Positions 5,408 to 32,902 of a stretch of DNA of 43,902 bases are shown here, piece by piece. The notes beneath the pieces are model-generated. The model searched no databases. It was not told the DNA's origin and was given only the letters and a program-made list of their open reading frames with translations. Source of the DNA: Bacillota bacterium (GTDB lineage Bacteria > Bacillota > Negativicutes > Sporomusales > CTSoil-080); contig JAGGAC010000010.1 of the NCBI GenBank assembly GCA_017889635.1, positions 82,105 through 126,006 on the forward strand. The letters are read 5' to 3'. Position 1 is the stretch's first letter, and the number at the start of each line of letters is the position of its first letter. A program made the position numbers and the translations under genes.

Positions 5408-5435
5408 AATAAAAAACTAACTGGAACCAAAATAG

Positions 5436-5476: not shown

Positions 5477-5493
5477 GGTTTCACACTATACCT

Positions 5494-6549
5494 TTATACA
5501 ATCTCATTTAATGCCTGAAGTAGCGTCGCCATTTCTTCATCCGAACCAATACTTACCCTTAAAAAATTATCTATTCTTGGTTTTTTAAAGTATCTAACTA
5601 GAATTCCTTTTTCTCTTAGCCGTTGATAAATTTCATCTGCATTCATTTGCGAATGACTGATAAAAATAAAGTTGGCCTTTGAAGGAATAACATTAAACCC
5701 GCTAGCAGTTAAGCTCGCCGAAAAGTTATCCCGTGTCGCAATAACTTTTCGTCTTGTCTCCTGAAAATATTTCTCATCTTCGAATGATGCAAGTGCCCCA
5801 GCAAGCGCTAACTGATCAAGCGTATAAGAATTGATAGAGTTTTTTACCCTATCTAGACCATCAATCAGCTCTTTTTGGCCTAATGCCAGTCCAACCCTCA
5901 ATCCTGCTAGCGAACGTGATTTTGACAGCGTTTGAACAACTAATAAATTGGAGTATTTCTTAATAAGCTTAACCGCCGACTCGCCGCCAAAATCAATATA
6001 CGCCTCATCAACAATAACCACCTGCTCAGTATTTCGTTGTATAATAGCTTCTACTGCTTCAAGAGGTATGTACTTGCCTGTAGGAGCATTAGGATTAGGG
6101 AAAATTATCCCCCCATTATTTTCAAAAAACTGTTCAACAGGAATAGAGAAATCTCCATTAAGCGGGACAACTTTATAGTCAATATGAAATAATGCAGAAT
6201 ATACCGGATAGAAACTGTAGGTTATATCCGGAAATAAAATTGGTATTCCCGGATTAAAAAACGCCTGAAAACTAAAAGCCAGAACCTCGTCTGAGCCATT
6301 TCCTACAAATACTTCTTCTTTAGCTAAGCCATAATATTGGGCAATACATTGTCGCAACTCATCACACGTAGGGGTAGGATACAGTCTTAAGTTCTCATTT
6401 GCCGCCTCCCGAATAGCTGCTAACACCTTGGGTGATGGAGGATAAGGGTTTTCATTGGTATTTAGTTTCACATACGTCTTATCTTTAGGCTGTTCACCAG
6501 GAACATAAGGTTCAATACTGCGTACTACTTGACTCCAATACTTGCTCAT
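5494..6549 (-). CDS. hisC: Histidinol-phosphate aminotransferase
   Basis: The protein is 351 residues, the usual HisC length. It catalyses transamination between imidazole-acetol phosphate and glutamate in histidine synthesis and often also serves aromatic amino acids. It shows KLNTNENPYPPSP near the N-terminus, GNGSDEV for phosphate binding of PLP, IFPNPNAPTGKY, VDEAYIDF with the PLP-contacting Asp and Tyr, and QTLSKSRSLAGLRVG with the Schiff-base Lys near 210. C-terminal FLRVSIGS completes the family set. The start ATG 6549 follows AAGGGAG. No other his gene is present, so it is a stand-alone copy. A TATAAT (minus strand, just before the GGAGGG of a possible leader ORF) may be its promoter. 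Confidence 0.92.
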   Translation of the reverse strand: MSKYWSQVVRSIEPYVPGEQPKDKTYVKLNTNENPYPPSPKVLAAIREAANENLRLYPTPTCDELRQCIAQYYGLAKEEVFVGNGSDEVLAFSFQAFFNPGIPILFPDITYSFYPVYSALFHIDYKVVPLNGDFSIPVEQFFENNGGIIFPNPNAPTGKYIPLEAVEAIIQRNTEQVVIVDEAYIDFGGESAVKLIKKYSNLLVVQTLSKSRSLAGLRVGLALGQKELIDGLDRVKNSINSYTLDQLALAGALASFEDEKYFQETRRKVIATRDNFSASLTASGFNVIPSKANFIFISHSQMNADEIYQRLREKGILVRYFKKPRIDNFLRVSIGSDEEMATLLQALNEIV

Positions 6550-17315: not shown

Positions 17316-17349
17316 CAAAAAACACCAGCTCAATGCCCGGTGTTTTTTG
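17316..17349. terminator. Bidirectional terminator after the coat genes
   Basis: CAAAAAACACC (17316-17326) pairs with GGTGTTTTTTG (17339-17349). It separates the plus-strand coat pair from the minus-strand peptidase fragment. Confidence 0.8.
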
Positions 17350-17362
17350 TTATTTTTAATCG

Positions 17363-18015
17363 CTATATCATAAGCGTAACATCCAACGCTTCCAATACTT
17401 TATCAATTTGACACAATATAGTTACTTGCTCAGATCCTGCAAAAAGCAAACCAACAGCATAATTATCCTCAGTCAAAACAAGTGAACCGCTGTCTCCCGG
17501 CATACTCATCGGACCTGCCAGAATTTGTCCGGAAAATATTGCGTACTCAAAATGACTAAGACTTACTTGACAAGTTACTTCAGTTGCCAATACCACACTA
17601 GATGTCAATCCAGAACTACGACCACTTTTTTTAACCACCATTCCCACTGTCGCTTTTTTTGTTCCGCGTACGGCGCCAATGTTAATTATCTCAGCCTTGA
17701 TAGCATCATCATCTACCGGTGCAGCTACAGCGCAATCCACATAATTTATTCGTTCAGTTTCTCTTAGCACCTTGATCCGGTACCGCGGCTGAAATACTTT
17801 AACACACTTATTAAGCCACTCTTCGAATTTATTCGCAATGCGACACTGCGATGAAGCAATTTCACTATGAATAGGAACAAATCTTGTTAAATGCCCTATT
17901 ACCCCTGTCCCAATATCACCGCCGTCATAAAGTCCTGGTTGTAAAATTGCGTCACCTACTCCAGCCCGTTCATCATAACCATTAGTCAAATTAGCTAAAA
18001 CATGATTATTGGATA
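17363..18015 (-). pseudogene. Trypsin-like serine peptidase, 3' part of a split gene
   Basis: On the minus strand the frame reads SNNHVLANLTNGYDERAGVG up to a serine motif MPGDSGSLVL, a chymotrypsin-type peptidase with His (SNNHV), Asp (NYVDCAVAAP) and Ser (GDSGS) positions. The N-terminus is absent. Beyond the SNNH codons the frame hits a TAG at 18026-18028. The codons for SNN-H lie inside the 14-bp repeat at 18002-18015. The same repeat ends the missing N-terminal part at 32542, so the gene is interrupted by the inserted elements. A TTG at 17989 might start a shortened product, but it would lack the catalytic His. Confidence 0.88.
18002..18015. repeat. Attachment core 1 (left chromosomal junction)
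   Basis: ATGATTATTGGATA, first of three identical copies (others at 22332 and 32542). It is preceded by an extra C shared with copy 2. It lies in the active-site codons of the split peptidase gene and marks the left end of the inserted DNA. Confidence 0.85.
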
Positions 18016-18223
18016 CTCCACAACGCTAGACAATACTAATCAGCTAATCACTCTTAAATTGTTAGAATAATTGTTAGCTAGAGTCGGACAAGTCAATATG
18101 CGTTTTACGCAAAGAAATTGAAAAACTATATAAATCTTAATAATTAATCGATCCAATAATTTAGCAATTTATTTGCAGGAAATTAACCTAACTTGTTGTA
18201 TTTTATTTGCGAGGAGGGAATCA

Positions 18224-18862
18224 ATGCACTATTCATTTAAAAAGTATCTAATAACACTCATTGTTCTATTAACAGTATTTACATCCGGTATTATTATCGG
18301 CCATACAAACCAAACCTCTGCCGAACAATCTTCGGCGATTATGCCAAATACCTTAAAAGGCATTCACTCAGTCCCAGCAACTGGTTCTGTTGATGTAGCA
18401 TTTAGTCCCGCAGGTGGCATAACCGAAATGATAACTAACACAATCGCCAAAGCTAATAAAAGCGTCTATGTACAAGCATACAGTTTTACCTCTCCCGAAA
18501 TTATTAAAGCTCTCATCGACGCAAAAAAACGCGGCATAGATGTTCGAATTATCGTTGATAAAAGTAATGTGTCGGGACTAGATAAAAACTCATCGCGCGC
18601 AAAAAAATTAAGGAATCTTTACTCTTCCCTAATTAATAATGCTATTCCGCTAAAAGTCGATGATGCTTTTCAAATCGCCCACAGCAAAATCATGATTATC
18701 GATGGCATTGATGTTATCACCGGTTCTTTCAACTTTTCCTATTCAGCCGAGCATAATAACGCCGAAAATTGCCTAATACTCCATGGCAACAAACAACTTT
18801 CCGACGAATATATGAAGAATTGGCAATGGCGTTGGGACGCAACCGAAAATTATAGTATGTAG
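18224..18862 (+). CDS. Exported phospholipase D-type (single HKD) nuclease-like protein
   Basis: The start at ATG 18224 is set by GAGGAGGG; the frame itself is open further upstream. The 212-residue protein has an N-terminal hydrophobic segment (residues 8-26), a signal or anchor, followed by a PLD domain. VYVQAYSFTSPEIIKALIDA at 81-100 is the usual first strand-helix, and H153-x-K155-xxxx-D160 (HSKIMIID), then TGSFNFSYSAEHNNAEN, is the catalytic HKD region. Single-HKD proteins such as Nuc work as dimers. The family contains extracellular nucleases, so a role in DNA degradation outside the membrane is likely but unproven. It is first in element A. Confidence 0.85.
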   Translation: MHYSFKKYLITLIVLLTVFTSGIIIGHTNQTSAEQSSAIMPNTLKGIHSVPATGSVDVAFSPAGGITEMITNTIAKANKSVYVQAYSFTSPEIIKALIDAKKRGIDVRIIVDKSNVSGLDKNSSRAKKLRNLYSSLINNAIPLKVDDAFQIAHSKIMIIDGIDVITGSFNFSYSAEHNNAENCLILHGNKQLSDEYMKNWQWRWDATENYSM

Positions 18863-18896
18863 TAACATTACTTATTCGAAAAAACGCGAATGATAC

Positions 18897-18939
18897 AAGA
18901 GGGCATTCTAAAGCTAATCTTGCTTTAAAATGCCCTCTT
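18897..18939. terminator. Bidirectional terminator, PLD / DUF4127
   Basis: AAGAGGGCATT (18897-18907) pairs with AATGCCCTCTT (18929-18939), and AAAGC/GCTTT pairs inside the loop. It serves the convergent genes on both sides. Confidence 0.85.
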
Positions 18940-18943
18940 ATCT

Positions 18944-20503
18944 TTAATGCTTAACTTCTACTTGTAGTTCGAACATTCTGTTCCATGGAAAAGAAACTTT
19001 AATTTTTTCCGGTTGAAACCAAAGATTTTCTTTTGCAAATCCCTGTACCTGTCTTTGAGCCTCAGCTGTTAAAATTGGTTTAAAATCATTAAGATAAACC
19101 GCACTCCTTTTATTTGGCGAAACAAATTGATTATCCAAAATTTTTCTAATATTAGCCTCATAAGCCCAATCATCAAGATAACGAACGGCCAACAAACGCC
19201 TGCGACTTTCTTCGCTCATTGCTCCTGACATCATCCCCTGCCCAATAGCATAACCAATAGTATTACTGGCAGTATTCCACCCAGAATAGGCGCTGAGTTT
19301 ATCCAGTAAACTACGCCTGGATAATTCGGCCATAAGCGCATTGTCTGCTCCATTAGCAAATGAAATATCAGCAATCGCCACTTTATTTTCTTCTTTTAAC
19401 TGAGCCTCTATCCCATCAATAAACTTAGCTATTCTTGGGGTAAGCACTGTCGTATTTTTAAGCGATCCGGCTTCTAAGGTTTTTCCTGTTTCTGAAGTAT
19501 TCACCGCAAACACTAAATCAGGATGCACAGGATTATCAAATACGATTCCGCCAGCTGCGGTAATGTGATCAACAATCGTTTTGCCAACTTTTTGATCTTC
19601 GTAACTAGGTATTGAATCACCACCGGCCCCTGAAGCATATTGCAACTTAACTATAGGGATTTGCATCGTCAAGTTGTTGTACGCTCTGACTAACATAATC
19701 ATACCTAATTGATCGGCTCCAGGAAAGGTTTGGAAAATATCTGGCGATAAATCAGCTGCAAGTTTTACAAATTCTCGACCTTCTTTATGACTTTGAGAAT
19801 AAGGTGCTGTATCATCTCTTCCTAACAAGAAGAAACGAAATAAACCTTTCCTATCCATATCAATAAGAGAAGCATTAACGTCAAAGTTTTTTTGCCGGCG
19901 TTTCATCCAATCCTCTAAAAAAGCTGACGGAATAGCCGCCAATTTAGAATTAAGTTCTTTTTCTTCTTGTTTCGTAAGTCCTACTATTTCCTCTTTATCT
20001 TCTAACGCTGTTAACCGAAAAATATCCCATCCATATTTTTCATAATAACCAGGCTCAACGCCCCCTTCACTGCCCTGTGGAGTTCGTAAAACAGTAGTAT
20101 ATACATACAGGCCAAGATCAGGAAATGCTTTATGCAATTCACCAAACCGTTTCAAACGCTTCTGTAGTACCAATTCATCAAAACTATGCATCCGAGAATC
20201 AACTAAACCACCATAAATTAACGAATCTCCCGACAACACCATTGCGTCGGCTTGTCCACCGTTTTCCATAATCCATCGCCACAATTTTTCTGGGTCACCT
20301 TTTTTCCCCCGACTAGCTATTATTTCTTTCGGCGGTACTAAAATCTTAATATTTGCTGCCTTAGCAGTATCTATTACATATTCCAGACTAACCGGGCGAT
20401 CATCTTGTGGTACGTACAATATAGTACTAGCGTGAGTGATAGCACTCCCTATCAAAAATGACAATAAAAAAGCAAATCCCACAATCAACTTTCTTAACTT
20501 CAT
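18944..20503 (-). CDS. DUF4127 family protein, exported
   Basis: The 519-residue protein begins with a clear signal peptide (residues 1-26, LIVGFAFLLSFLIGSAITHAS). The rest matches the DUF4127 family: ILYVPQDDRPVSLEYV at the start of the mature part, DAMVLSGDSLIYGGLVDSR, LLGRDDTAPYSQSHKEG and ADISFANGADNALMAELSR. The paired conserved Asp residues and the GRDD motif suggest an enzyme, but no activity is established for the family. GGAGG precedes the ATG. It is convergent with the PLD gene, and its mature part should lie outside the cytoplasmic membrane. Confidence 0.9.
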   Translation of the reverse strand: MKLRKLIVGFAFLLSFLIGSAITHASTILYVPQDDRPVSLEYVIDTAKAANIKILVPPKEIIASRGKKGDPEKLWRWIMENGGQADAMVLSGDSLIYGGLVDSRMHSFDELVLQKRLKRFGELHKAFPDLGLYVYTTVLRTPQGSEGGVEPGYYEKYGWDIFRLTALEDKEEIVGLTKQEEKELNSKLAAIPSAFLEDWMKRRQKNFDVNASLIDMDRKGLFRFFLLGRDDTAPYSQSHKEGREFVKLAADLSPDIFQTFPGADQLGMIMLVRAYNNLTMQIPIVKLQYASGAGGDSIPSYEDQKVGKTIVDHITAAGGIVFDNPVHPDLVFAVNTSETGKTLEAGSLKNTTVLTPRIAKFIDGIEAQLKEENKVAIADISFANGADNALMAELSRRSLLDKLSAYSGWNTASNTIGYAIGQGMMSGAMSEESRRRLLAVRYLDDWAYEANIRKILDNQFVSPNKRSAVYLNDFKPILTAEAQRQVQGFAKENLWFQPEKIKVSFPWNRMFELQVEVKH

Positions 20504-20817
20504 TATTTTTCCTCCACCATTAACTTTAAGTCAAGATAACATTATGTTAATTCTTTATGTAATTATAAATCCCTACATTTTCATTAAGGTAATATTTCCC
20601 ACCGCTCTCCAAGCCGCAACCTCAGCACCTTTGCAGAGGGATCATCTCACAAACTTAGACAGCCCTGAAAATTTTATTATCACCTTAAAATCTGTCATGG
20701 TACTTCATCATGATATAGAAATGAAACTAATTATCTAACAAATAGTAATAATTTTGTAAGCTTATCGTAACATTAGTTCAGTAGTATTGAATCATAAAAC
20801 AAAGGAGGATGCACATT
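20504..20817. other. Intergenic region between divergent genes in element A
   Basis: The region must carry the promoters of the DUF4127 gene (minus) and of the small His/Pro-rich gene (plus). I see no convincing -35/-10 pair, RNA gene or repeat. Confidence 0.35.
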
Positions 20818-20991
20818 ATGAAAAAGAAACTATCAGCATTAATCCTGGGTTTAATGATTATGAGTTTTGCCGCTACGGTAAGTGCTCATGGCGGACCAGG
20901 ACCGGGTCCAGAGCCAGGACATGGACCAGAACCTAGACCTCATCATCATCACCACGCACCACCACCGCCACCTCCTGATTATGAGTGGTAA
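20818..20991 (+). CDS. Tiny exported His/Pro-rich protein, 57 aa
   Basis: The start at ATG 20818 is preferred because GGAGG (20804-20808) sits 9 bases before it. An ATG at 20809 directly abuts the ribosome site. Residues 1-24 form a signal peptide ending in VSA. The mature 30-odd residues are only Gly, Pro, Glu, Arg and His with a short aromatic end: PGPGPEPGHGPEPRP, then five His, a Pro run and DYEW. The His cluster could bind transition metals. The strong SD, signal peptide and own terminator make it a credible gene. The family is not recognised. Confidence 0.7.
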   Translation: MKKKLSALILGLMIMSFAATVSAHGGPGPGPEPGHGPEPRPHHHHHAPPPPPPDYEW

Positions 20992-21024
20992 ATCACAAAC
21001 TCATCACAACTAAATAATATTTTG

Positions 21025-21063
21025 AGCCAGGAACAACGCTTCATCGCGTCTCCTGGCTTTTTT
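21025..21063 (+). terminator. Terminator after the His/Pro-rich gene
   Basis: AGCCAGGA (21025-21032) pairs with TCCTGGCT (21051-21058), followed by T6. It also insulates the integrase gene that begins 72 bases later. Confidence 0.85.
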
Positions 21064-21134
21064 ATGTGCCAACTAATTAATGATGCATCGGATACTAAAT
21101 AAATTAATAGATTGTTAAGCAGGAGGTGAAATAA

Positions 21135-22274
21135 ATGAGTATTCACCAAAAGAACAGCAATTGGTATGTAATAATTTCCTATAAGGATGCATTTGGAAAG
21201 TTCAAGAAGAAGTGGTACAAATCTGGGCCAATTGCAAGTGACAAAGATGGAAAAAAAGCATTACAACTGGAAATAAAATTGCTCTTAGACTTGGAACGTG
21301 GCAATATAACCCTATCGGAAAAATCGACCGTTAAGGAGTTTTTAGCTAAATGGCTTGACTTAGAAATTAATCTGACTAAAAAGCCGCGAACAGCCTATAC
21401 CTATAAAAAAAAAATGGATAACATTTCAAAAGATATTGGGCATATAACAATATCTAAATTAACAGCAATCCAGATTAAAGAGCATATTAACTCTGAACTA
21501 AAGCGTGGACTAAAGCCAAATTCTATAAACGCAGAAATGACGGTTTTTAAGCAAGCAATGAAAAAAGCCGTTCAATGGCAAATCATAACCAAAAATCCTT
21601 GCGAGTTTGTAGACCTTCCAAAGCGCAATGAGCCAAAAAGCAGCATATATTCGTCGGAACAAGTCGAAAAGTTTTTTGCAATAATAAGGGATACTGATCT
21701 ATACTTGCCTTGTATGCTTGGTTTTATGTGCGGTCTACGCAGAGGAGAGATATGCGGCCTCAGATGGCAAGATATCGACCTTGACAATAAGGTCGCCATC
21801 ATCGCCCATAGTTACAACCGTAATCCGTTTACCGGCAAAATGGAGTTACAGGAAGTCAAAACATCTGCCAGTAAATCCCGAATCCCCTTACCGAATGTTG
21901 TAATTTCGGCATTAACCTTAGAACAACTAAAGCAAAAAAAAGATAGGCTGAAATATAAGACAGCCTATCAAGAGTCCGGACATGTTTGGGCACAGAAAAC
22001 AGGGCAACCACACCAGCCCGATCATTTTTATATAAAATTTCGCAAGATATTAACGGCTCACAATTTGCCTGTTATTCGTCCCCATGACATGCGCCACACC
22101 TTCGCTACCCTGTTATACGAATCCGGCTTAGATGATAAGGCAGTTTCAGGGGCAGTCAGACATTCAAAAGCAAGCTTTACATCAGATTATTATGTCCACC
22201 TGCGGGAACAAGTTAAACGCAAGCCAGCAGATGCGATCAACGACTTGTTCACCCGGTTGTTAGATAATTGTTAG
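21135..22274 (+). CDS. Tyrosine integrase of element A
   Basis: The 379-residue protein starts at ATG after AGGAGGTGA. Residues 3-55 form an arm-type DNA-binding domain (AP2-like: NWYVIISYKDAFGKFKKKWY). Residues 63-150 are the core-binding domain, and the catalytic domain follows. Catalytic residues visible are Arg at 202 in CGLRRGEICGLRW, Lys near 247 (TSASKSRI), His317-x-x-Arg320 in PHDMRHTFATLLYESG, His343 (VRHSKASF) and Tyr 352/353 (SDYYVHL). Its stop lies 57 bases before core 2. By eye about two thirds of residues in the central block are shared with the element B integrase, which has exactly the same length. Confidence 0.92.
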   Translation: MSIHQKNSNWYVIISYKDAFGKFKKKWYKSGPIASDKDGKKALQLEIKLLLDLERGNITLSEKSTVKEFLAKWLDLEINLTKKPRTAYTYKKKMDNISKDIGHITISKLTAIQIKEHINSELKRGLKPNSINAEMTVFKQAMKKAVQWQIITKNPCEFVDLPKRNEPKSSIYSSEQVEKFFAIIRDTDLYLPCMLGFMCGLRRGEICGLRWQDIDLDNKVAIIAHSYNRNPFTGKMELQEVKTSASKSRIPLPNVVISALTLEQLKQKKDRLKYKTAYQESGHVWAQKTGQPHQPDHFYIKFRKILTAHNLPVIRPHDMRHTFATLLYESGLDDKAVSGAVRHSKASFTSDYYVHLREQVKRKPADAINDLFTRLLDNC

Positions 22275-22331
22275 ATAGACAGAAGACAATACTACTTCGC
22301 CAGCACCATTGCCAACTTACTTAAACTTAAC

Positions 22332-22345
22332 ATGATTATTGGATA
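22332..22345. repeat. Attachment core 2 (junction between elements A and B)
   Basis: Second copy of ATGATTATTGGATA, with the same preceding C as copy 1. It lies 57 bases after the element A integrase stop, in a region without genes. Confidence 0.8.
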
Positions 22346-22509
22346 TAATAATATTTTATGCTACCATACATAAATCCGCCCCTACAGGGCTTAGCATTCC
22401 TCATACTTATTTGAACAAGCCAGACAAGACATTAAAAAGTTAGATTTTAAAAGCGTTAAATAGTTTAGAAAATAGATTAGACACTGAAAAGTAAACCCAT
22501 AACCGAAAC

Positions 22510-25500
22510 CTATTCTCCCTGACGAAATCCATTCTTCCACCGTTTCAAAACGGCACCAACGTTTAAATTGCCTAACGGTATGTTTTGAAAGTAAATAAAT
22601 ATTATCGGAATGATTATCAGGGTAAATACCGTTGAAGTTAATAGCCCACCTATTAGTACCAAAGCCATACTAACCCGGGTTTCCGCCCCCTCGGTAACCG
22701 ACAATGCTGTAGGCAGCATACCAACTACCATTGTTATTGTTGTCATAAAAATAGGCTTAAGTCTGGTCTTACCCGCCTCGATAATCGCGTCATATGCATT
22801 TTTGCCTTGCTCCATAAGAGTAAGGGTATAATCCAAAAGCAAGGTTCCGTTTTTTGCCACAAGTCCATCCATAATCAGAATCCCGATTAGCGAATATAGA
22901 TTTAAGGTATTGTGAGTCACCGCCAAAAATAGCAGCGAACCAATTAATCCTAACGGCAGAGAAAACATCCTGATCAATGACGTTGACAGCGACTCATAAA
23001 GTACCGCCAGTAATATATAAACAAGAATTAGCGACAAAGCTAGTGCCTGATACATTTCACTAAAAGTATCATCCATGCTGCTTGCCTGACCAGCAAAACG
23101 ATAACTTATATTTTGTCCCAAAACATCCGGAGTCATCTTTTGCGCCAATTCATTTAAAACCTCCTTTAGCGGCCTGTCAGTAATATTAGCAGTAATAGTA
23201 ATCGTCCGTTGTTTATCAAATCTAAATAACTGAACCGGACCAGTCCCGTCCGTTATCTTCGCAACATCACCGATTGATATCTGGTGGTTGCCCGCCATTA
23301 TCGGCAGTGATCGAATGTCTGATACCGTAAAACCGTCGCTGCCTTTCAGTCTGACCATAATATCAGTATCCTGTCCATCATTGGTCGGATCATTGGCATA
23401 AACCCCGGCTTGTTGACCGACTATCGCAGCATTAAAAACATTGGTAATTTCTGCAACTGAAGTGTTATAAAACTTGAGCTTTTCCCGATCAACGCTTAGT
23501 TGAATTTCTGGCATCCCCTCGGAATATGTGCTTCTCACATCTTTTAATCCCCTGACCTGTAAAAGAACAGCTTGGAGTTTATAATTTGCTTTAATTAAAC
23601 TATCCAAATTAGCGCCAAGTAATTGAATTTGGACTGGTGCAGAAGAGCCACCTCCACTACCGCTGGTACCTGATACACCAGCTACAGAGGACTGTGTCTC
23701 ACTAACCCTTATAATCACATTCGGCATATTTTTTGCCGCGTATGCCCTAACCTGATCAGTTACCTCCCACACGGTATGTTTACGGTCTTTCCGGTCAACT
23801 AATTGAACCGATATCGATCCGGCATTGCTTGTCGGCGTACCGATACTCGAAAGATACTTCGTTACTTCTGGAATAGTTGCTAGATACTGTTCCAGACTTG
23901 CAATAGCAATATTAGTTTGCTGAATATTTTGCCCAACCGGTAATTCCACAGCAATCCTAAAACTGCCTTCATCAGTTCGCGGCATATATTCAGCTCCGAT
24001 AATTCCCAGCGGAATCAGAGCTACCGCCAAAATAAACATAATTAAAACCCCGGCAACAACTTTTTTCCTGTTAGCCAGTGCCCAGCGCAGAAAAATTTCA
24101 TATTTAACAATCGCGCTTTTCTCCAATCGATCCATAAAAGTCCAAACATGTCCCGTAGGCTCACTAAGTCCATTTTTAAAAAGCTTTGATGCTAACATCG
24201 GAGTAAGCGTAAATGATATTAACATTGAAAACAAAGTAGCAAAAACTATTGTAAGACCAAATTGACGAAAGAACTGTCCTGTCATCCCATTCATAAATGC
24301 AATCGGCATAAAAACTACAACGTCACATAGCGTAATCGCAATAGCCGCCATACCGATTTCGGTACGTCCCTCTTCGGCGGCAACAGCTGCCGTTTTACCC
24401 AATTTCATATGTCGGTGAATATTTTCCAGCACAACAATGGAATCATCAACTAAAATTCCAATACACAAGGCCAGCCCCATTAATGACATCATGTTAAAAG
24501 TAAAACCGGCTATATACATAGCAAAAAAAGTGGCTATAATCGATGTTGGAATGGCAATAATAACAGCCGCAGTAGACCGCCAGCCACGCAAGAACAGATA
24601 TAGCACCAGGCCAGTAGTAAAAAGACCTTCAATCAAGCTTGCTAAAGTATTATGCAATGAATTATTAACATATTGTGACGAGTCAGTTATAATCACAAAT
24701 TGATAGTCTGGGTATTCCGCCTTTAATGTAGCCAATTGGTCCATCGTATTTTTAGCAGTATTAACAATGTTGGCATCACTATTCATATATACCGACAAAG
24801 AAATCGCGTCAGCCCCCTGGGTTCGGCTGTAGCGGCTTACACGGGCATCCTGTTCTTTTATTGTCGCTACATCTTTTAGCGGTATCGATATTCCGTTGCC
24901 GTTGGTTACCTCTAATTTCGCAATTTCTTCAGGTGTTAGATATTGAGCAAGTAACCGGACATCAGCCTGAGTTTTATCATTATATACCGTACCCGAAGGG
25001 AGTAAAACGTTCTCCCCCTTAATTTTACTGATTATCTGACTTATTGAAAGGTTATAAAATCGTAGTTTATTGCGATCGACCTCTACAGCAACCTCTTTAT
25101 CCCGTCCACCATAAAGCTGTACCTCGGATACTCCGTCAGCGCGACCTAACCGTTCCTTAAAAACATTATTGGCAACCGAATATACATCACTCAAGGGATC
25201 ATTAGCCACAACTGCAATCTCCATAATCGGAGTGGCATTAATATCACGCTTTACGACAACAGGTTCGTCAATGCCGTCAGGCAATTTTTTTCTAACTGAG
25301 TTTACCTGTTTAGTAACGTCGATAGCTGCAATATCGGTATTGGCTGTAAAGTCAAACTCCATAATAACTCTGGCGTTTTGAGGACTGGCGATTGACGTGA
25401 TATGCTTCAAATGAGCCACTGAAGACAACGATTCTTCCAATGGCTTAATGACCTGATTTTCCATCTCCTCTACACCGGCTCCAGTGTAATGAACAGAAAC

Positions 25501-25638
25501 TGTTACATAGGGCGAATTTAGCGCCGGAAGAAGTTCAACCCCAATCCGTTGAAGGCTATATAGTCCCAGCACCACAAAAAGCATAACAATCATAGTTATT
25601 CCTACCGGTCTTTGTATGGAAAATCTAGTAATATTCAT
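22510..25638 (-). CDS. RND-family efflux pump, inner membrane permease (AcrB/HAE1-like)
   Basis: The 1042-residue protein is a full-length RND drug exporter that trades protons for substrate. It starts with the family N-terminus SIQRPVGITMIVMLFVVLGL. The proton-relay Asp pair is at 398-399 (GILVDDSIVVLENIH). The C-terminal half repeats the fold, with DEGSFRIAVELPVGQ and the relay Lys in GLVAKNGTLLLDY. Twelve helices and two large outer-side loops are present. It lies 27 bases after the adaptor gene on the same strand. No outer membrane channel gene is in this element, so it must use one encoded elsewhere. Substrates are unknown. Confidence 0.95.
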   Translation of the reverse strand: MNITRFSIQRPVGITMIVMLFVVLGLYSLQRIGVELLPALNSPYVTVSVHYTGAGVEEMENQVIKPLEESLSSVAHLKHITSIASPQNARVIMEFDFTANTDIAAIDVTKQVNSVRKKLPDGIDEPVVVKRDINATPIMEIAVVANDPLSDVYSVANNVFKERLGRADGVSEVQLYGGRDKEVAVEVDRNKLRFYNLSISQIISKIKGENVLLPSGTVYNDKTQADVRLLAQYLTPEEIAKLEVTNGNGISIPLKDVATIKEQDARVSRYSRTQGADAISLSVYMNSDANIVNTAKNTMDQLATLKAEYPDYQFVIITDSSQYVNNSLHNTLASLIEGLFTTGLVLYLFLRGWRSTAAVIIAIPTSIIATFFAMYIAGFTFNMMSLMGLALCIGILVDDSIVVLENIHRHMKLGKTAAVAAEEGRTEIGMAAIAITLCDVVVFMPIAFMNGMTGQFFRQFGLTIVFATLFSMLISFTLTPMLASKLFKNGLSEPTGHVWTFMDRLEKSAIVKYEIFLRWALANRKKVVAGVLIMFILAVALIPLGIIGAEYMPRTDEGSFRIAVELPVGQNIQQTNIAIASLEQYLATIPEVTKYLSSIGTPTSNAGSISVQLVDRKDRKHTVWEVTDQVRAYAAKNMPNVIIRVSETQSSVAGVSGTSGSGGGSSAPVQIQLLGANLDSLIKANYKLQAVLLQVRGLKDVRSTYSEGMPEIQLSVDREKLKFYNTSVAEITNVFNAAIVGQQAGVYANDPTNDGQDTDIMVRLKGSDGFTVSDIRSLPIMAGNHQISIGDVAKITDGTGPVQLFRFDKQRTITITANITDRPLKEVLNELAQKMTPDVLGQNISYRFAGQASSMDDTFSEMYQALALSLILVYILLAVLYESLSTSLIRMFSLPLGLIGSLLFLAVTHNTLNLYSLIGILIMDGLVAKNGTLLLDYTLTLMEQGKNAYDAIIEAGKTRLKPIFMTTITMVVGMLPTALSVTEGAETRVSMALVLIGGLLTSTVFTLIIIPIIFIYFQNIPLGNLNVGAVLKRWKNGFRQGE

Positions 25639-25665
25639 TGTACCACCCCGAATTGTCTGTATTTA

Positions 25666-26922
25666 CTACTCTGACACTACGGCAGGATTAGCCTTCATTC
25701 CGTTCTTTAGCCGTGCTAGATTAGAAATGACAACTTTTTCACCTTCGTTAATTCCAGCGATAATTTCAATACTACTATCGTTACGCGCGCCAGTTTGGAT
25801 AACGCGTTCTATCACTTGATTATTTTCATCGACGATAAATATTCGGTCCTTTCCATTCAAAGAAGTCACAGCTTCTTTCGGCACAAATAAAGTTTGCGGT
25901 CTAAGAAGCAAAGTAAAATCAGTCCTGGCAAACATTCCAGCCTTGAGTGTGTTATCGGTATTATCTAGGGCCAGACGAACAGAAAAGGACTGTGTGGCAG
26001 CATCAATTGCTGGACTGACATAAATAATCTTACCATTATAGTTCTTACCAACTGCATCAATTACGATTGACGCAGTCATCCCAGTCCTAAATAGCCCGAT
26101 GTCCTGCTCTGAGACGGAGCAATCAACATAGATATTGCTATTATCAACAATCGACAACAGCTTCTGCCCGGCTTGAACCAAGTTGCCGACTTCCACCTGC
26201 CGATAGCCAATTTCTCCTGCTCGCGGCGAACGTATAACCATGTCATTTCTCTGATTTTCCAGGGCGTCAATCGCCCCAGCAGCTTTGTCCCTAATCGCCT
26301 CTTTCGACATTACAACAGCCGCACTTCCTGATGAAACCTGATTAGCTAATGTATCCAAAGCCGCTTTTGCAGCATTCATTTGCTGTTCAGCATTATCCAA
26401 AGCCTCTCTCGACACACCACCCATCTTAGATATAGCCTTATACCGTTCATAATTTATTGAACTCAACTTATAATCTGCCTGAGCTTTTTGGTAACTTGCT
26501 CTAAACGAAGCATTACTTTCCACTACATCGGCATTGGCGCCGCGAAAAGCAGCCTCATTTTGTGTCAAGGCTGCGTCGATATCCTTAGTGTCCTGAACAA
26601 CTAACACCTGACCAGGCTCAACCGGTTGGCCGAGTTCAACATTAACTTGAATTATTTTGCCGGAATATTTAGCTGAGATATCTACCTGGGACTCCGGTAC
26701 CGTCTTGCCGGTTAATTCAATAGTTTTCATCATATCTTTGCGGTGTACGGTCATAATATCGACATTCGGCTTTACCTCAGACCGCGGATTATTTGCTGCG
26801 TTCTTGCTATGAAACCCAAATATCGCCAAAGGCAAAATCAGCAAAACAACCACACCAGTAATTACCTTTGTTTTCATCGGTATTGTACGTAATCGCTTTC
26901 TTATTGGCATAGTCTTTATCAC
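25666..26922 (-). CDS. RND efflux periplasmic adaptor subunit (membrane fusion protein)
   Basis: The best start is GTG 26922, with AAGGAG eight bases before it. A GTG at 26931 overlaps the ribosome site and ATG 26910 is too far, giving about 418 residues. One N-terminal helix (about residues 18-38) anchors it. The lipoyl-type halves (ELTGKTVPESQVDISAKYSG and the second part DMVIRSPRAGEIGYRQVEVG) flank a long alpha hairpin rich in Ala. Beta-barrel and membrane-proximal domains follow, with AGMFARTDFTLL near the end. It links the permease to an outer membrane channel. A triple 11-bp repeat and promoter lie upstream. Confidence 0.93.
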   Translation of the reverse strand: MIKTMPIRKRLRTIPMKTKVITGVVVLLILPLAIFGFHSKNAANNPRSEVKPNVDIMTVHRKDMMKTIELTGKTVPESQVDISAKYSGKIIQVNVELGQPVEPGQVLVVQDTKDIDAALTQNEAAFRGANADVVESNASFRASYQKAQADYKLSSINYERYKAISKMGGVSREALDNAEQQMNAAKAALDTLANQVSSGSAAVVMSKEAIRDKAAGAIDALENQRNDMVIRSPRAGEIGYRQVEVGNLVQAGQKLLSIVDNSNIYVDCSVSEQDIGLFRTGMTASIVIDAVGKNYNGKIIYVSPAIDAATQSFSVRLALDNTDNTLKAGMFARTDFTLLLRPQTLFVPKEAVTSLNGKDRIFIVDENNQVIERVIQTGARNDSSIEIIAGINEGEKVVISNLARLKNGMKANPAVVSE

Positions 26923-27002
26923 TAAAATCACTCCTTGTCCTGGCGATAATTCTCTAATCCATTGCTACTTTCCGGCTTATTAAATCCTGTTCATTACTTA
27001 TT

Positions 27003-27031
27003 ATGTTACCAACCTATAATTACTGAGACAA
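27003..27031 (-). promoter_or_regulatory. Promoter of the RND efflux operon
   Basis: On the minus strand TTGTCT (27026-27031) and TAACAT (27003-27008) are separated by 17 bases. Both boxes deviate from consensus, fitting a promoter that needs an activator. The start codon is about 80 bases further. Confidence 0.5.
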
Positions 27032-27043
27032 GCGTCCAAACCA

Positions 27044-27076
27044 GAACTTTCTGTGAACTTTTTGTGAACTTTTTGC
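27044..27076 (-). promoter_or_regulatory. Three tandem 11-bp direct repeats, probable response-regulator site
   Basis: The units GAACTTTCTGT (27044-27054), GAACTTTTTGT (27055-27065) and GAACTTTTTGC (27066-27076) follow one another without gap. An 11-bp period is the spacing used by OmpR/PhoB-type regulators. The block ends 12 bases before the -35 box of the efflux operon, a usual place for an activator. No regulator gene is in the window. Confidence 0.65.
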
Positions 27077-27208
27077 ATTTCATAGTAAAATTACTTGAAT
27101 TTTTTTTATAACTCAATCTCATTTAAAATCAGGTAGCCCATTCAAAGCTAGATAAGTAAGTATCCTAAGCCCCCTCGGCAAGCTCTTAATCAAGAGAGCG
27201 TAAATTAT

Positions 27209-27242
27209 AAAACCGCTTAAAACTTAAGTTCTAAGCGGTTTT
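27209..27242 (-). terminator. Terminator of the TadE/TadG gene cluster
   Basis: AAAACCGCTTA (27209-27219) pairs with TAAGCGGTTTT (27232-27242). It lies about 65 bases past the stop of the last pseudopilin gene and separates it from the efflux operon. Confidence 0.8.
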
Positions 27243-27306
27243 ATTGGTCTGGTTTTAACATAGCAAGTTAGTTCTCTAGCTTTTAAAGAAATCTCCCCCC
27301 AAATCT

Positions 27307-28320
27307 TTAAGACCACGTCCAATCATCATCAACCAAATAAATATTTACCGGCCCATAATATGAAGATGCTGTGCTCGCACTAGTAGTTGGCGGCAAAGAT
27401 ACTTTCACAAAACGTCCCTTGACTTGAAGGTTTGGATAATACGTAACCCCATCTTTAACTACCGCCGTTCCCGTGTCAACAGATTGAAGGAAAAACCCAA
27501 CGAATCCTTGGATTTTAAGTTTATCACCCGAATAGTATTTGGCTAGACCGCTAGGTAAACTACTTACCACCGGTACCATCATCAGCCTGGCTTCGCCAAC
27601 CGTTAAGCTGTCATAATTTGTATTAGTATCTGAAGTCAACCTTGTCATAAATGCGTTTACCCCAAGCTGACCGCCTGTAGCATCAGACCAATAATATAAC
27701 GTATCATCAATTGTAAGTACATTGGGATCACCACTTTTTAGATAACTAAGATACTCACTATCTGTTGCGTTGTTTTTGAAACAAATATTCGCATAGCCGA
27801 ACTCATTCGCGCCTGTTGGATTAATCTTCATCGTATATTGCTGAGTATGTGAGCCATCCCACGTCATATTGGTAGGTGCCTCCATTACAAAAGGCGCAGC
27901 AATCCCAGCCGGCAGCGAATTAGCAGGAACCGCAACAGCTTTTGCAGTTGCAGTCACAGTTACCGAACCACCAGAAGCAAAAAAAGCTGGTATTGTTCGA
28001 CTGGTAGTCACCTTAACAAGTACCCCAGATCCGTTTACTGTAGCATCTGCAGTTACGGTATCGCTTGACTTCCCCGGCGATTGTTGAGCATAGCTTTGGG
28101 CTACGCTTTCTATAGTACTTTCGACAATATCACTGTTATTGGTTGAAGCAGCACCGGCAAGGGCAGCTTGATCAACTGCCGCCTGCAGCTTGCTCTTGAT
28201 CACTGCTCGATGTCCCAGATCTATCACCACTGCGCTGACACCAATCATAACTACCACAGCAATTGCAGCAATGGGCAAGACTTGTCCCTTGTTATTTCCA
28301 ATAACTTTAAACACCATCAT
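27307..28320 (-). CDS. TadG-like Flp pilus-associated protein
   Basis: The 337-residue protein opens with NNKGQVLPIAAIAVVVMIGVS, the TadE/TadG-type N-terminal helix with the usual Gly-Gln before the hydrophobic stretch. It continues with AVVIDLGHRAVIKSKLQAAVDQAALAGA, typical of Tad_N (PF13400) domains. The remaining 260 residues are a beta-rich exported region without a recognised domain. I set the start at ATG 28320 (ribosome site GGTG is weak; ATG 28317 is equally possible). It is the last of three such genes, and no Tad ATPase or secretin is nearby. Confidence 0.8.
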   Translation of the reverse strand: MMVFKVIGNNKGQVLPIAAIAVVVMIGVSAVVIDLGHRAVIKSKLQAAVDQAALAGAASTNNSDIVESTIESVAQSYAQQSPGKSSDTVTADATVNGSGVLVKVTTSRTIPAFFASGGSVTVTATAKAVAVPANSLPAGIAAPFVMEAPTNMTWDGSHTQQYTMKINPTGANEFGYANICFKNNATDSEYLSYLKSGDPNVLTIDDTLYYWSDATGGQLGVNAFMTRLTSDTNTNYDSLTVGEARLMMVPVVSSLPSGLAKYYSGDKLKIQGFVGFFLQSVDTGTAVVKDGVTYYPNLQVKGRFVKVSLPPTTSASTASSYYGPVNIYLVDDDWTWS

Positions 28321-28398
28321 CACCAACTTTAAATAAAGTATGCATATTAACAATGTTGAATCAGAACAGGGAAACTTATTACTTGAAGAGTAGACCCG

Positions 28399-28824
28399 TC
28401 AGTTTGTAGGAGACGTCTGTAACATAACCGTTGACGTACTTGAAACTGTATAAGGACTTGACAAAATAGCACTCATAACCGGAAAAAGCATATTCATTGA
28501 GCAGGATACTGTAACCGTTACTGGATTAGCAGCTTTCATAGGAGTAGGACTCACAGTAACCGTTAAGTTATCAACTACAGTGGCATTAACGCCAGCAGTT
28601 AAGTAAGCTAATGCAGCTGTATTTGCTGTTTTCCGATTACCGCTTTTGGCGACTGCTAAACTAGCTTCACGAGTAGCCTGAACAACCATTTCATACCTGT
28701 ATATTAGACGCCCGAAATCTATGATTCCTGCTAACAAAAATAAGAGAACCGGCACAATTATGGCAAATTCGACAATACTTTGTCCACCATTATTGCGGAA
28801 ACATTTACTTATCCTTCTCAGCAC
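28399..28824 (-). CDS. TadE-like pseudopilin
   Basis: GTG 28824, seven bases after GAGGTG, begins a 141-residue protein. NNGGQSIVEFAIIVPVLLFL is the TadE signature (GQ-x-x-x-EF followed by a helix), then IIDFGRLIYRYEMVVQATRE. The mature part is beta-rich. TadE proteins are minor pseudopilins of the Flp/Tad pilus, processed by a prepilin peptidase. The longer reading from 28839 overlaps the ribosome site. It follows the Ser/Thr-rich TadE-like gene and precedes the TadG-like gene. Confidence 0.85.
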   Translation of the reverse strand: MLRRISKCFRNNGGQSIVEFAIIVPVLLFLLAGIIDFGRLIYRYEMVVQATREASLAVAKSGNRKTANTAALAYLTAGVNATVVDNLTVTVSPTPMKAANPVTVTVSCSMNMLFPVMSAILSSPYTVSSTSTVMLQTSPTN

Positions 28825-28896
28825 TATAAAGCACCTCACTCATCCCACGGCCGGGACTATCAATCAGTATTTTTACCCAACAAATTTCTCGGCGGC

Positions 28897-29715
28897 TCAC
28901 AGGTTTACACACCCACTTGATGATGATGACGAACTCGATGACGATGACGAACTCGATGACGATGAACTTGTTGACGAACTTGACGTTTGACCTGACGATG
29001 TCGACGATGAACTTGTTGACGTCTTACCCGACGATGTTGAACTCGTTGTTGAACTCGTCGACGTCTTACCCGATGATGTCGAACTTGTTGTTGAACTTGT
29101 TGATGTCTTACCCGACGATGTCGATGTCGAACTTGTTGTTGAACTCGTTGACGTCTTACCCGACGATGTCGATGTCGAACTTGTTGTTGTCGTTCCCGAT
29201 GTTGACGACGTCGAACTTGTTGTTGTCGTACCTGATGTTGACGACGTCGAACTCGATGTCGAACTTGTTGACGTTGTCGAACTTGTTGGAAGAGTAGAAG
29301 ATTTAGCCGAATTAGCTCCTTGCTGATAAACAGTGGCTACATACTTAATGGTATACGAACTCCCCACAAAAAGTTTTCCTACTGGAGTTAGTAGTGGTAC
29401 ACTCGCCACTGCTGTAATTTTAGTCGGGTTACTCACTGACAAAGTCGATACAGTAACAGTGCAATCCTGAACTAACTTGTGAATTTCATCTGTTGCAGTC
29501 GCTGTAGCAACTGCAGACGTGCTATTAGTAGCTATCAGCGATACCGCCCGTCCACCTCTTCGAGTTGCCTCTGCCAGCATCGCCTGACGAAACAGGACAT
29601 TGCCAAAATCAATTGCTCCCAACACTACCGTAATAAAAATCGGCAATACCAGCGCAAATTCAACCATGGCTTGCCCTCGTCTATTTCGAACAACTCTCAT
29701 AATCTGGCATAACAT
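28897..29715 (-). CDS. TadE-like pseudopilin with a long Ser/Thr-only tail
   Basis: Residues 1-150 form a TadE-type domain (NRRGQAMVEFALVLPIFITV, then GAIDFGNVLFRQAMLAEATRR). From about residue 145 the chain is almost entirely Ser and Thr with a few Gly and Lys, built from variable repeats such as TSSGKTSTSSTTSS. It ends in a run of about 20 Ser and GCVNL. The tail repeats are also near-identical at the DNA level (28915-29285). Such a tail suggests a glycosylated stalk or adhesin extension and is a hot spot for length change. AGGTGA precedes the ATG. The C-terminal Cys is odd. It heads the three-gene cluster. Confidence 0.8.
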   Translation of the reverse strand: MLCQIMRVVRNRRGQAMVEFALVLPIFITVVLGAIDFGNVLFRQAMLAEATRRGGRAVSLIATNSTSAVATATATDEIHKLVQDCTVTVSTLSVSNPTKITAVASVPLLTPVGKLFVGSSYTIKYVATVYQQGANSAKSSTLPTSSTTSTSSTSSSTSSTSGTTTTSSTSSTSGTTTTSSTSTSSGKTSTSSTTSSTSTSSGKTSTSSTTSSTSSGKTSTSSTTSSTSSGKTSTSSSSTSSGQTSSSSTSSSSSSSSSSSSSSSSSSGCVNL

Positions 29716-29899: not shown

Positions 29900-30925
29900 T
29901 CAGTATAGTCCAGGTATAAAGCGATATTTTACAACTTTACAATATTCTTGATAGTCTGGATCTGTAATAAGATGCCGCTCTTCAGTTATTGCACGCATAA
30001 AATAGATAAAAGATAAGAATATCATTCCAATATAGGCTGTTGGAGTATTAATTGCGAATATGCTAATCCACCAAGCAAGATTTTTTGATATATATGCCGG
30101 ATGACGCACATAAGCGTAGGGACCATTTGTGACTATACCGCGATTAGTTAGATTTGAGGCCTTCATACCTAATGCAACAGATCCCCAAACATATATAGTA
30201 AACAGCATTAACGCCGTTAATCTTGCTAAAAACGTTATATTGTCAGAATCAAAAACAGCATAATCATCTGCATAACAAGAAATATAATAATTGGTGATAT
30301 TATTAAACGGAGGATAACAGAGTAAAGCCACTATCCAGCCAAGCATCGTTGGTTCCACAGAGCGAATTTTATTGCGGAAAATTTTCGCATCTACCATGTA
30401 GCCAAAGGTAAATATTGAACAATCCACCAATAATAACAGCCCAAATAAAAGTGGATAGATGGCATTATTGAATGCACCTACTGTTAATTCAACATTATAG
30501 TCTAACGTCCAGGCAGCATAGCCTCTGATAACCGAATCAATATTACCAAATATAAAATTAATCATAATCGGGAAAAAAAATATTTTTACAGCTAAAAACA
30601 AAAGATTGGTTTTTTCTGTGAAACTAATGTGGGGCATTTTGAAATTAGGGTCAGATGTAAACTTCCCAAGATATACAATAGAATGTTTTAAAAAATTCCG
30701 AATTGTTCTTAATGCTATGTAACCTTTTGTTTCCGATACCTTTTTCTCATCTATAAAGTAGTAATATATAAATCCTCCGAGTGTATAGAGAACAGCATAG
30801 CAGCCTAAAATATATTGCGTTTCTATTCGCAAAAAATCAATATAATATTTGTTGTTTAAGTAAAAAGCTAATACCAAATAGATGACTAATAAATTTGCAC
30901 TATAATATTTAAATTTTAAACTCAT
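29900..30925 (-). CDS. Isoprenylcysteine-methyltransferase-like membrane enzyme
   Basis: The start ATG 30925 follows AAGGAG; the longer frame from 30958 is unlikely. The 341-residue protein has about eight hydrophobic helices. Its last 90 residues hold the ICMT/PEMT-family motif NRGIVTNGPYAYVRHPAYIS, then EERHLITDPDYQEYCKVVKYRFIPG. GPY-x-x-x-RHP-x-Y and the later EE pair bind S-adenosylmethionine at the membrane face. In bacteria such enzymes methylate lipids or small hydrophobic molecules, and the substrate is unknown. It uses noticeably more A/T-rich codons than the pump genes. Confidence 0.8.
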   Translation of the reverse strand: MSLKFKYYSANLLVIYLVLAFYLNNKYYIDFLRIETQYILGCYAVLYTLGGFIYYYFIDEKKVSETKGYIALRTIRNFLKHSIVYLGKFTSDPNFKMPHISFTEKTNLLFLAVKIFFFPIMINFIFGNIDSVIRGYAAWTLDYNVELTVGAFNNAIYPLLFGLLLLVDCSIFTFGYMVDAKIFRNKIRSVEPTMLGWIVALLCYPPFNNITNYYISCYADDYAVFDSDNITFLARLTALMLFTIYVWGSVALGMKASNLTNRGIVTNGPYAYVRHPAYISKNLAWWISIFAINTPTAYIGMIFLSFIYFMRAITEERHLITDPDYQEYCKVVKYRFIPGLY

Positions 30926-31352
30926 TTTTTCTCCTTCTGATACAAATTCTTTAATCATCGTTTTCTAAATACTTAGCAAAGCAACTTTTTAGACGTTTCT
31001 ATCGCATTTTGCAATATATTAAAATTTCTTTTTTATATATTGGTTATTTTAGCATATTATGTAGTAATAAGTAAAGGATCTTTAGAATTTTTTGTCACTT
31101 TTTATTAAGAAAACGCAAAAAAGAAGAATTCAAAAACGTCAATACCTAATATATAATCAAACTTTCAATAGCCTTCACCGCCACTAGTAAATAGCTAAAG
31201 GCAGGTTACTATCAAGCGATAGACCTGCCTTTAGCTATTTATATTGCAATAATCAAAGGAACGTTTACTATCTCTCCAGCATACTATAGAAAATCAGCCA
31301 TTTGTAACATCAATATAATCTAAGTCTATCTGATAATTTAGGGGGTGATTCC
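30926..31352. other. Intergenic region before the element B integrase
   Basis: AT-rich DNA with the promoter of the minus-strand methyltransferase, a 19-bp hairpin (31188-31241) and the integrase leader. A TATAAT-like box is at about 31313-31318 on the plus strand. No gene was found. Confidence 0.4.
31188..31241. terminator. Perfect 19-bp hairpin upstream of the element B integrase
   Basis: Bases 31188-31206 and 31223-31241 pair fully around a 16-base loop. It is not downstream of any gene, because both neighbours read away from it. It therefore acts as an insulator or an attenuator, 112 bases before the integrase start. Confidence 0.5.
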
Positions 31353-32492
31353 ATTAGCATTCAGCGGAAAGGAAATACTTGGTATGTAGTCCTTTCTTAC
31401 AAAGATACCTTCGGAAAGAAAAAACAAAAATGGTATCGCGCTGGTCCAATAGCCGACGATAAAAGTGGTCAAAAAGCTGAAAAACTTGAGCGCCAATTAC
31501 TCATAGATCTTGAACGCGGTGAAACAGTCGCAAGTAACAAATTAACTGTCAAAGAATATCTCGACAAATGGCTTGATATTGAAATAAGGCCTAGCCTCCG
31601 GCCACGTACAATTTACCATTACACCATGCAAGTCATTAATATTTGCAAAAACATTGGCGGTATTGAAATACAAAAACTTACTCCACTTCAAATAAAAGAG
31701 CACATTAATGCTGAATTCGCTAGAGGCATTAAAGCAAATTCTATTGGAACACAAATGGCCATCTTCAAATGTGCAATGAGAAAAGCAGAAGAGTGGCAAA
31801 TCATAACCAAAAATCCTTGTGAATACATCAAGTTGCCAAAACGTACTGAACCTAAAAACGCCATATATTCACCAGAGCAGGTCGAAAAATTATTGCTGAC
31901 AGCAAAAAGCACCAATCTTTATTTACCTTGTGTTCTTGGTTTTTTGTGTGGTCTGCGCCGTGGCGAAATATGCGGTCTTAGATGGCAGGATATTGATATC
32001 GAAACTAAAACAGCAGATATCCAACACAGCTTTGATCGGAATCCATTAACCAAAACTTTAGAACTTGGCAAGGTTAAAACAATGGCCAGCAAGTCAAGAA
32101 TAGTTCTATCTGACATCGTTATTATCGCCCTTAAACAAGAACAATTACAGCAAAAAGAATATCAGCTAAAAAATGGCCCTAACTATAAAAACCTTGATTT
32201 TACATGGGCCCACTCCGACGGTTCTCCTTATCTTCCTGATTACCTTTATGCTGCATTTATCAAGTTGTTAAAAAAAGCAGGCTTGCCTGTCATTCGCCCG
32301 CATGATATGCGTCATACCTTTGCCACCTTGCTATGGGAAAGCGGTCTAGATGATAAAAGTATTTCTGCTGCCGCCCGCCATGCTAAAACAAGCTTCACAA
32401 GCGACTATTATGTTCACCTAAGGCAAACTGCCAAAAATCGTCCTGCCGCAGCGATTGACAGCATGTTTAAAAGAAAATTAGAAAAAGATTAG
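31353..32492 (+). CDS. Tyrosine integrase of element B, probable ATT start
   Basis: The open frame reads SIQRKGNTWYVVLSYKDTFG from an ATT codon at 31353. That is the exact counterpart of the ATG of the element A integrase, preceded by GGGGGTGA at the right distance. No ATG, GTG or TTG occurs in frame until 31626, which would lose the arm-binding domain. From ATT the length is 379 residues, identical to the first integrase. Catalytic residues are all present: CGLRRGEICGLRW, HDMRHTFATLLWESG, the RHAKTSF His and SDYYVHL. ATT is a known rare start (as in infC). A decayed start codon, making the gene silent, is the alternative. Confidence 0.85.
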   Translation: MSIQRKGNTWYVVLSYKDTFGKKKQKWYRAGPIADDKSGQKAEKLERQLLIDLERGETVASNKLTVKEYLDKWLDIEIRPSLRPRTIYHYTMQVINICKNIGGIEIQKLTPLQIKEHINAEFARGIKANSIGTQMAIFKCAMRKAEEWQIITKNPCEYIKLPKRTEPKNAIYSPEQVEKLLLTAKSTNLYLPCVLGFLCGLRRGEICGLRWQDIDIETKTADIQHSFDRNPLTKTLELGKVKTMASKSRIVLSDIVIIALKQEQLQQKEYQLKNGPNYKNLDFTWAHSDGSPYLPDYLYAAFIKLLKKAGLPVIRPHDMRHTFATLLWESGLDDKSISAAARHAKTSFTSDYYVHLRQTAKNRPAAAIDSMFKRKLEKD

Positions 32493-32541
32493 AAGCTACA
32501 ATTATCAACCTTTAAATCTATTGTTTCGTTTAAAACTAACT

Positions 32542-32555
32542 ATGATTATTGGATA
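32542..32555. repeat. Attachment core 3 (right chromosomal junction)
   Basis: Third copy of ATGATTATTGGATA, 49 bases after the element B integrase stop. It abuts the 5' part of the split peptidase gene. Confidence 0.85.
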
Positions 32556-32849
32556 AAATCAGCGGCCGACCAGTACTGTTATCTCTAACAACCGCTCCAA
32601 AAGTACCGGCGGAAATTCTAAAATGTCCAATACTTATTCCACCACATCTGTAAGCATTCCATCGATTCTCTTGGGTATAATTGCCGATCTTCTAAGGTTA
32701 TCTTTTGCATACTTTTTTTTAACTAATATAACAGCAGCTTGCTTGCCGGTATTTTCTCCTCTCACTTGTTTAATCCCATTGCCGACCCCTACCACATTTT
32801 CAATACCGCGCAATTCTTGAAACAATTCAAAAATCCTTTTTCTCTCCAT
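32542..32849 (-). pseudogene. Trypsin-like serine peptidase, 5' part of the split gene (also frameshifted)
   Basis: ATG 32849, after AGGAGG, opens the conserved N-terminus MERKRIFELFQELRGIENVV to TDVVE, then stops at 32634. In another frame the sequence continues [20 protein letters not shown] to [10 protein letters not shown], ending inside core 3. The gap between the two frames is 5 bases, so one base was lost or two gained. Joined at the core to 17363-18015 it gives a chymotrypsin-fold peptidase with the catalytic triad. The gene is disrupted twice: by insertion and by this frameshift. Confidence 0.85.
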
Positions 32850-32902
32850 TTTCCTGTACCTCCTGTACTAAAATGGCGGTTACATTTTATGTTATGTGAA
32901 GC

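Follow-up and report, generated by a model that had tools for sequence, protein, structure and literature searches.

The window, by which we mean the whole 43,902-nt stretch of DNA analysed here, contains a gene for a predicted peptidase of the NAL1/S1 type that is split by two islands lying in tandem. These islands very probably inserted successively, both using a single attB in this conserved gene, with integrases that had switched to it from tRNA genes. The window elements are integrase islands with an unusual target, and our reading of how they arose draws on the core and arm repeats at their ends, on the peptidase gene that is split in two genera and intact in relatives, and on the integrase tree, all of which can be read directly from the DNA.

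The letters at 18002-18015, ATGATTATTGGATA, recur exactly at 22332 and 32542, in all three cases on the plus strand. Only 0.002 exact copies per window would be expected from base composition, and none beyond these three is found in the whole genome (4,536,269 bases in 152 contigs). The middle copy, at 22332, indicates that there are two elements rather than one: element A (18002-22345) and element B (22332-32555), arranged head to tail with an integrase at the end of each (Table 1). The integrases are about 60% identical (59.6%), and their stop codons lie 57 bp from core 2 and 49 bp from core 3, respectively. No phage structural, satellite or conjugation genes were recognised by Pfam among the seven open reading frames of B and the three of A, integrases included, and the window holds no tRNA gene of the kind that marks one end of a tRNA-targeting island. 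What is found is a Phage_integrase-type gene at the end of each element, att cores and arm-type repeats at both ends, and an uninterrupted target in relatives, as in tyrosine-integrase islands. Two smaller features of element B are the dense degenerate repeats at 28924-29294 in a TadE-like gene, and the homologous start of its integrase (31353), which is without ATG, GTG or TTG and reads ATT after AGGGGGTGAT.

Table 1. Features of the window and of related loci. Positions are those of the window unless a contig or locus is named; the window genome is G000.
Feature	Position	Strand	Remark
Peptidase, C-terminal part	17363..18001	-	Asp and GDSGS side; no own start recognised
Core copy 1	18002..18015	+	junction of peptidase C-part and element A left end
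Element A left arm-type repeats	18061..18079	+	GTTAGAA, GTTAGCT
Element A cargo, PLD-like protein	18224..18862	+	PLDc_2
Element A cargo, DUF4127 protein	18944..20503	-	
Integrase A, tyrosine recombinase	21135..22274	+	Phage_integrase, Phage_int_SAM_3
Element A right arm-type repeats	22259..22276	+	GTTAGAT-AATT-GTTAGAT, 11 nt apart
Core copy 2	22332..22345	+	junction of elements A and B
Element B left arm-type repeats	22439..22482	+	three NTTAGAN
Element B cargo, RND efflux permease	22510..25638	-	
Element B cargo, HlyD-family membrane fusion protein	25666..26931	-	
Element B cargo, three Tad/TadE-like genes	27307-28353, 28399-28839, 28897-29715	-	
Element B cargo, ICMT/PEMT-like methyltransferase	29900..30958	-	
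Sigma-K-like pattern AC-N17-CATACTATA	31261..31288	+	upstream of integrase B; weak
Integrase B, tyrosine recombinase	31353..32492	+	start codon reads ATT
Element B right arm-type repeats	32477..32494	+	ATTAGAA-AAAG-ATTAGAA, 11 nt apart
Core copy 3	32542..32555	+	junction of element B and peptidase N-part
Peptidase, N-terminal part	32556..32849	-	64-bp frameshifting deletion relative to G001
CATAACATA, sigma-K/E-like -10 element	32888..32896	-	upstream of peptidase
Split sigK halves	G000 C62:2345-2773, C34:3906-4136; G001 C71:15-278, 5339-5773		
DapB-like genes	L249:2099-2920, L064:14185-15009		

The ends of the elements were compared in the integrase direction, using four left and four right ends from the window and from the related genome G001 (see below). 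Two NTTAGAN copies spaced 11 nt apart are present at all four right ends, and three copies at three of the four left ends, the left end of A having one copy plus a variant; the expectation for TTAGA is 0.16 per 150 nt on one strand. The core is extended to ATTATT-ATATCC-AATAAT (peptidase direction) at three of the four left ends, and the left end of A is without the ATTATT half of this inverted core, which counts against our reading. The NTTAGAN repeats and the core presumably correspond to the arm-type and core-type sites of tyrosine integrases. Islands A and B, each carrying NTTAGAN arm repeats beside its integrase and at its far end, would have inserted in turn at an attB inside the peptidase gene. 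They would have recombined within an 11-bp common core, TATCCAATAAT, that encodes L-S-N-N just before the catalytic His. Integration would recreate the core at both ends, so that a second island could insert beside the first. Both the recombination itself and the order in which the islands entered are what we infer.

When 32542-32900 and 17341-18001 are joined with a single core copy between them, the minus strand has a frame that reads LSNNHVLAN and continues through GDSGS to the stop. A sequence profile of intact relatives matches rice NAL1 and streptogrisin-type proteases, placing the snnHv block opposite NHHV in the FLTNHHV of rice NAL1 and GDSGS opposite NAL1's own GDSGS. Fold comparison of the intact relatives also returns NAL1 first, together with streptogrisin-type proteases (model mean pLDDT 71), and both the S1/NAL1-type fold and the His and GDSGS motifs are found in these relatives; a match to Pfam Nal1_C falls below the Pfam cut-off. 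The split gene is, by profile and predicted fold, a NAL1/S1-type peptidase cut at the codons around its predicted catalytic His. Its neighbours, a patatin-like gene upstream and CotF-type genes on the other side, are kept in most relatives. An earlier note on this DNA had placed a 14-base core at 18002-18015, on the catalytic-His block of a trypsin-like peptidase, and the three exact copies and the profile and fold matches uphold both statements. The middle core copy at 22332 is absent from the note, and the continuous frame described there holds downstream to the stop and fails towards the start, where the window gene has lost 64 bp by comparison with G001; the deletion lies about 80 bases ahead of the core as the gene is read and leads to a TAA after DVVE. 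This deletion is a second lesion of the window peptidase, independent of the insertions. The further claim that insertion destroys the enzyme is right for the DNA as it stands, and has to be qualified by this separate lesion and by the G001 gene, whose frame excision could restore.

We surveyed 380 genomes of the class, including the window genome, with a peptidase profile at a threshold of 1e-10, which was matched in 31. Leaving out two genomes with weak matches only (G073 and G093), 29 have an orthologue, and this is uninterrupted in 26. The exceptions are the window genome and G001, both split at LSNNH, and G024, in which the peptidase is broken at another place, by a frameshift at about residue 240 (G024:C4:620686-621695). 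Insertion at LSNNH is confined to two of the 380 genomes, and all four close integrases found among the 380 are located at that site. Since identical codons of this gene are interrupted in G001, which belongs to another genus of the same family as the window genome, LSNNH appears to be a true and repeatedly used target, as opposed to a chance hit.

Besides the restriction to two genomes, it counts against our reading that G001 is a draft MAG in which the relevant pieces, C53, C45 and C36, are not joined. The N-part of its peptidase runs to a core copy at C53:17362 that directly adjoins an integrase; C53:21216 marks another core, again with an integrase; and the C-part begins with a third core at C36:6. 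The first bases of C36 overlap the end of C45, and the hit there is counted. The window and G001 copies have 11 core bases in common, TATCCAATAAT, followed by CAT, CAA or AAA, and the joined G001 halves give an intact 336-aa frame. Apart from the integrases, none of the cargo of the G001 elements matches that of the window elements, which favours separate insertions. Beyond element 2, C53 continues into RqcH, Ca-ATPase and dapF (L064:16475-20000, L065), housekeeping genes that lie elsewhere in the window genome (RqcH on another contig), reflecting a rearrangement or a misassembly. Further matches to TATCCAATAATMA in G001 were rejected as att sites: those in C48 and C97 mark a single locus outside the peptidase, whose two ends overlap, and the one in C83 has unrelated surrounding sequence.

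The four integrases at LSNNH pair across the two genomes. Integrase B and int1 of G001 are 66.6% identical and integrase A and int2 58.4%, compared with 55.2% for integrase A and int1 and 59.6% for integrases A and B; in a tree of the 45 best matches by score the same pairs are grouped, and the partners occupy the same positions in both genomes. All four form one clade with a long-branched phage sequence, L175 (support 100/99). The next branch is L068, which lies at a tRNA-Val gene (100/99); all of these belong to a 12-member group (100/100) whose remaining members with a called target are all at tRNA-Val or tRNA-Ala genes. The same pattern is seen among the 157 distinct loci with scored integrase relatives: the 12 nearest, with at least 200 bits, include nine in which a tRNA gene starts -37 to 157 nt downstream of the integrase stop, as against 17 of the remaining 145 with a tRNA start within 250 nt. 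Two phage contigs among the 12, L173 and L174, have tRNA-like 3' segments by eye, for which the tRNA finder made no call. The simplest reading of these relationships suggests that the integrases switched target from a tRNA gene to a protein gene; they would have arisen in a tRNA-gene-targeting clade before moving to the peptidase, where the same codons came to be used in two genera. Integrase matches in plasmids and phages are all below 60% identity, TATCCAATAATCATGT occurs at 21 loci in viral contigs, and a search of viral contigs with the joined peptidase found no relative. In the phage L175, whose integrase gene is at L175:4742-5857, TTAGAA-type repeats flank a presumed attP on either side.

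The amino acids at the target are strictly kept, LSNNHV[LM]AN being invariant in all 26 intact relatives. At the DNA level the core window ranks 17th of 884 fourteen-base windows (mean pairwise identity 0.82), the exact 14-mer is present in three and the 11-mer in four of the 26, and other windows are more conserved, the best of them about 510 bases further on. Because third positions vary, the conservation seen in the protein is only in part shared by the DNA. The earlier proposal that selection holds the core codons constant is therefore borne out for the protein, and for the DNA the high rank of the core has to be set against the rarity of its exact copy; conservation of the core as the driver of target choice finds little in these figures to recommend it. 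Conserved codons may keep the target available, and do not fix it in the way that a tRNA gene does. The analogy with tRNA-gene integrases, also drawn in the earlier note, is stronger than first put because sister integrases sit at tRNA genes, and the check that the note proposed, for integrases in the same codons of other genomes, succeeded in the second genus.

Comparison of the split C-parts of the window genome and G001 over 212 codons gives pS 0.70, pN 0.16 and dN/dS 0.09, and neither part contains a stop codon. In a simple neutral simulation, the share of stop-free runs was 16%, 1% and zero at 0.1, 0.25 and 0.5 substitutions per site, respectively. Taken together, these results make an old shared inactivation unlikely. 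They bear on an alternative history in which one tandem insertion preceded the separation of the genera, the cargo was later replaced and the peptidase has been dead ever since. The shared order of B-type and A-type integrases, with their 66.6 and 58.4% identity, is what such a history would predict, and an ancestor may indeed have carried both types in this order, which is the counterpoint to separate entry. However, a gene dead for so long should hold several stops, the dN/dS is low, and the elements of the two genomes have no common cargo, so we regard this history as very improbable. Recent separate insertions and a gene that is restored at times both fit the low dN/dS.

Successive insertion at the peptidase is compatible with plain decay, that is, with a recent and irreversible disruption of a dispensable gene that has no regulatory role, and we give this outcome an even chance. 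The second lesion in the window peptidase, the frameshift in that of G024 and the presence of profile matches in only 31 of the 380 class genomes all point towards dispensability, whereas the conserved neighbours and the strong sequence conservation wherever the gene is present speak against it.

Integrating elements usually restore their target, and exceptions can usually be understood as regulated gene integrity (PMC10111431), examples of which include skin in sigK, gin in gerE and yin in yabG (PMC5595907, PMC10747680, PMC10111431). Helper-embedded satellites also target protein genes without restoring them (PMC10111431). The HE-PICIs and fis-PICIs described there resemble the window islands in several respects: their integrase clade has protein genes as recurrent targets, HE-PICIs supply no replacement sequence, the attP core is flanked by a doubled motif on either side, fis carries tandem pairs, and one PICI of the same integrase subclade is in a tRNA gene (PMC10111431). 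They are, however, enterobacterial phage satellites found in prophage late genes or in fis/hpt (PMC10111431), whereas the window islands occupy a peptidase gene of the chromosome, next to genes of the spore-coat type, and no satellite genes were recognised in them. The gin element in gerE of Bacillus cereus is a non-phage element in a sporulation gene of a spore former, as the window islands may be, but uses serine recombinases, and its excision was demonstrated (PMC5595907); the window elements have tyrosine integrases and are known from sequence alone. Similarly, yin interrupts a protease gene of a spore former, yabG of Clostridium botulinum, but it is prophage-like, its target encodes a cysteine protease rather than a serine peptidase of the S1/NAL1 type, and excised and circular forms were observed (PMC10747680). 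Genomic islands at tRNA genes are linked to the window islands by the nearest integrase relatives, which adjoin tRNA genes, and differ in that the window has no tRNA gene and its target is split, not restored. No insertion in a NAL1/S1-type peptidase is described in the titles and abstracts searched, which came mostly from outside the subscription literature. The islands would be a clear-cut example of a move by integrases from tRNA genes to a protein gene, with stacking and with use of the same active-site codons in two genera; in them one can study how such a change of target comes about and whether codons that protein function keeps constant make a stable landing site.

Upstream of the peptidase, CATANNNTA is found within 110 bases in 22 of 28 genes, often as GCATATCATA, compared with a mean of 1.06 and a maximum of 5 in 500 mononucleotide shuffles; the start codons defining these regions were chosen by ribosome-site matches. 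Going by the sigma-K/E consensus, we take this motif to be a mother-cell-like -10 element. This promoter motif and the CotF-type neighbours are the evidence that the peptidase may be a sporulation gene, one that would serve the sporulating mother cell, where its interruption might be tolerable. The islands might even leave the chromosome of the mother cell, so that the peptidase is restored there, a reading that is also compatible with successive insertion and that we consider unlikely. It accords with the upstream motif, the dN/dS of 0.09, the lack of stops where the neutral simulation soon produces them, and the intact frame of the joined G001 halves, and further points in its favour are the sigma-K-like pattern upstream of integrase B, a sigK that is also split in both genomes near a serine recombinase gene, and the published cases (PMC5595907, PMC10747680, PMC10111431). 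Yet the window gene, unlike that of G001, would stay frameshifted even after excision, no excision factor was recognised, and recent insertions explain the low dN/dS equally well. Moreover, the full sigma-K pattern occurs no more often in the window than chance predicts (4 observed vs 4.3 expected) and, of the four integrases, is found upstream of integrase B only. Less likely still is a fuller version in which the tandem islands are a sporulation switch at the catalytic-His codons, evolved from tRNA targeting and excised in the mother cell, with that of the window broken by a later deletion. Serine recombinases are credited with excision in sporulation intervening elements (PMC5595907); if excision occurs here, tyrosine recombinases would provide a further route by which genes are restored in connection with sporulation.

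As a separate observation, both genomes have a sigK that is split at about residues 140-148 and, close to it, a gene for a large serine recombinase (Table 1). In the order survey of 28 genomes, the sigK halves are apart in eight and the gene is uninterrupted in 13. On the sigK-element side, the window genome has a DapB-like gene that is 81% identical to one in peptidase element 1 of G001, and DapB-like cargo is thus, judging from this match, seemingly common to two different intervening elements.
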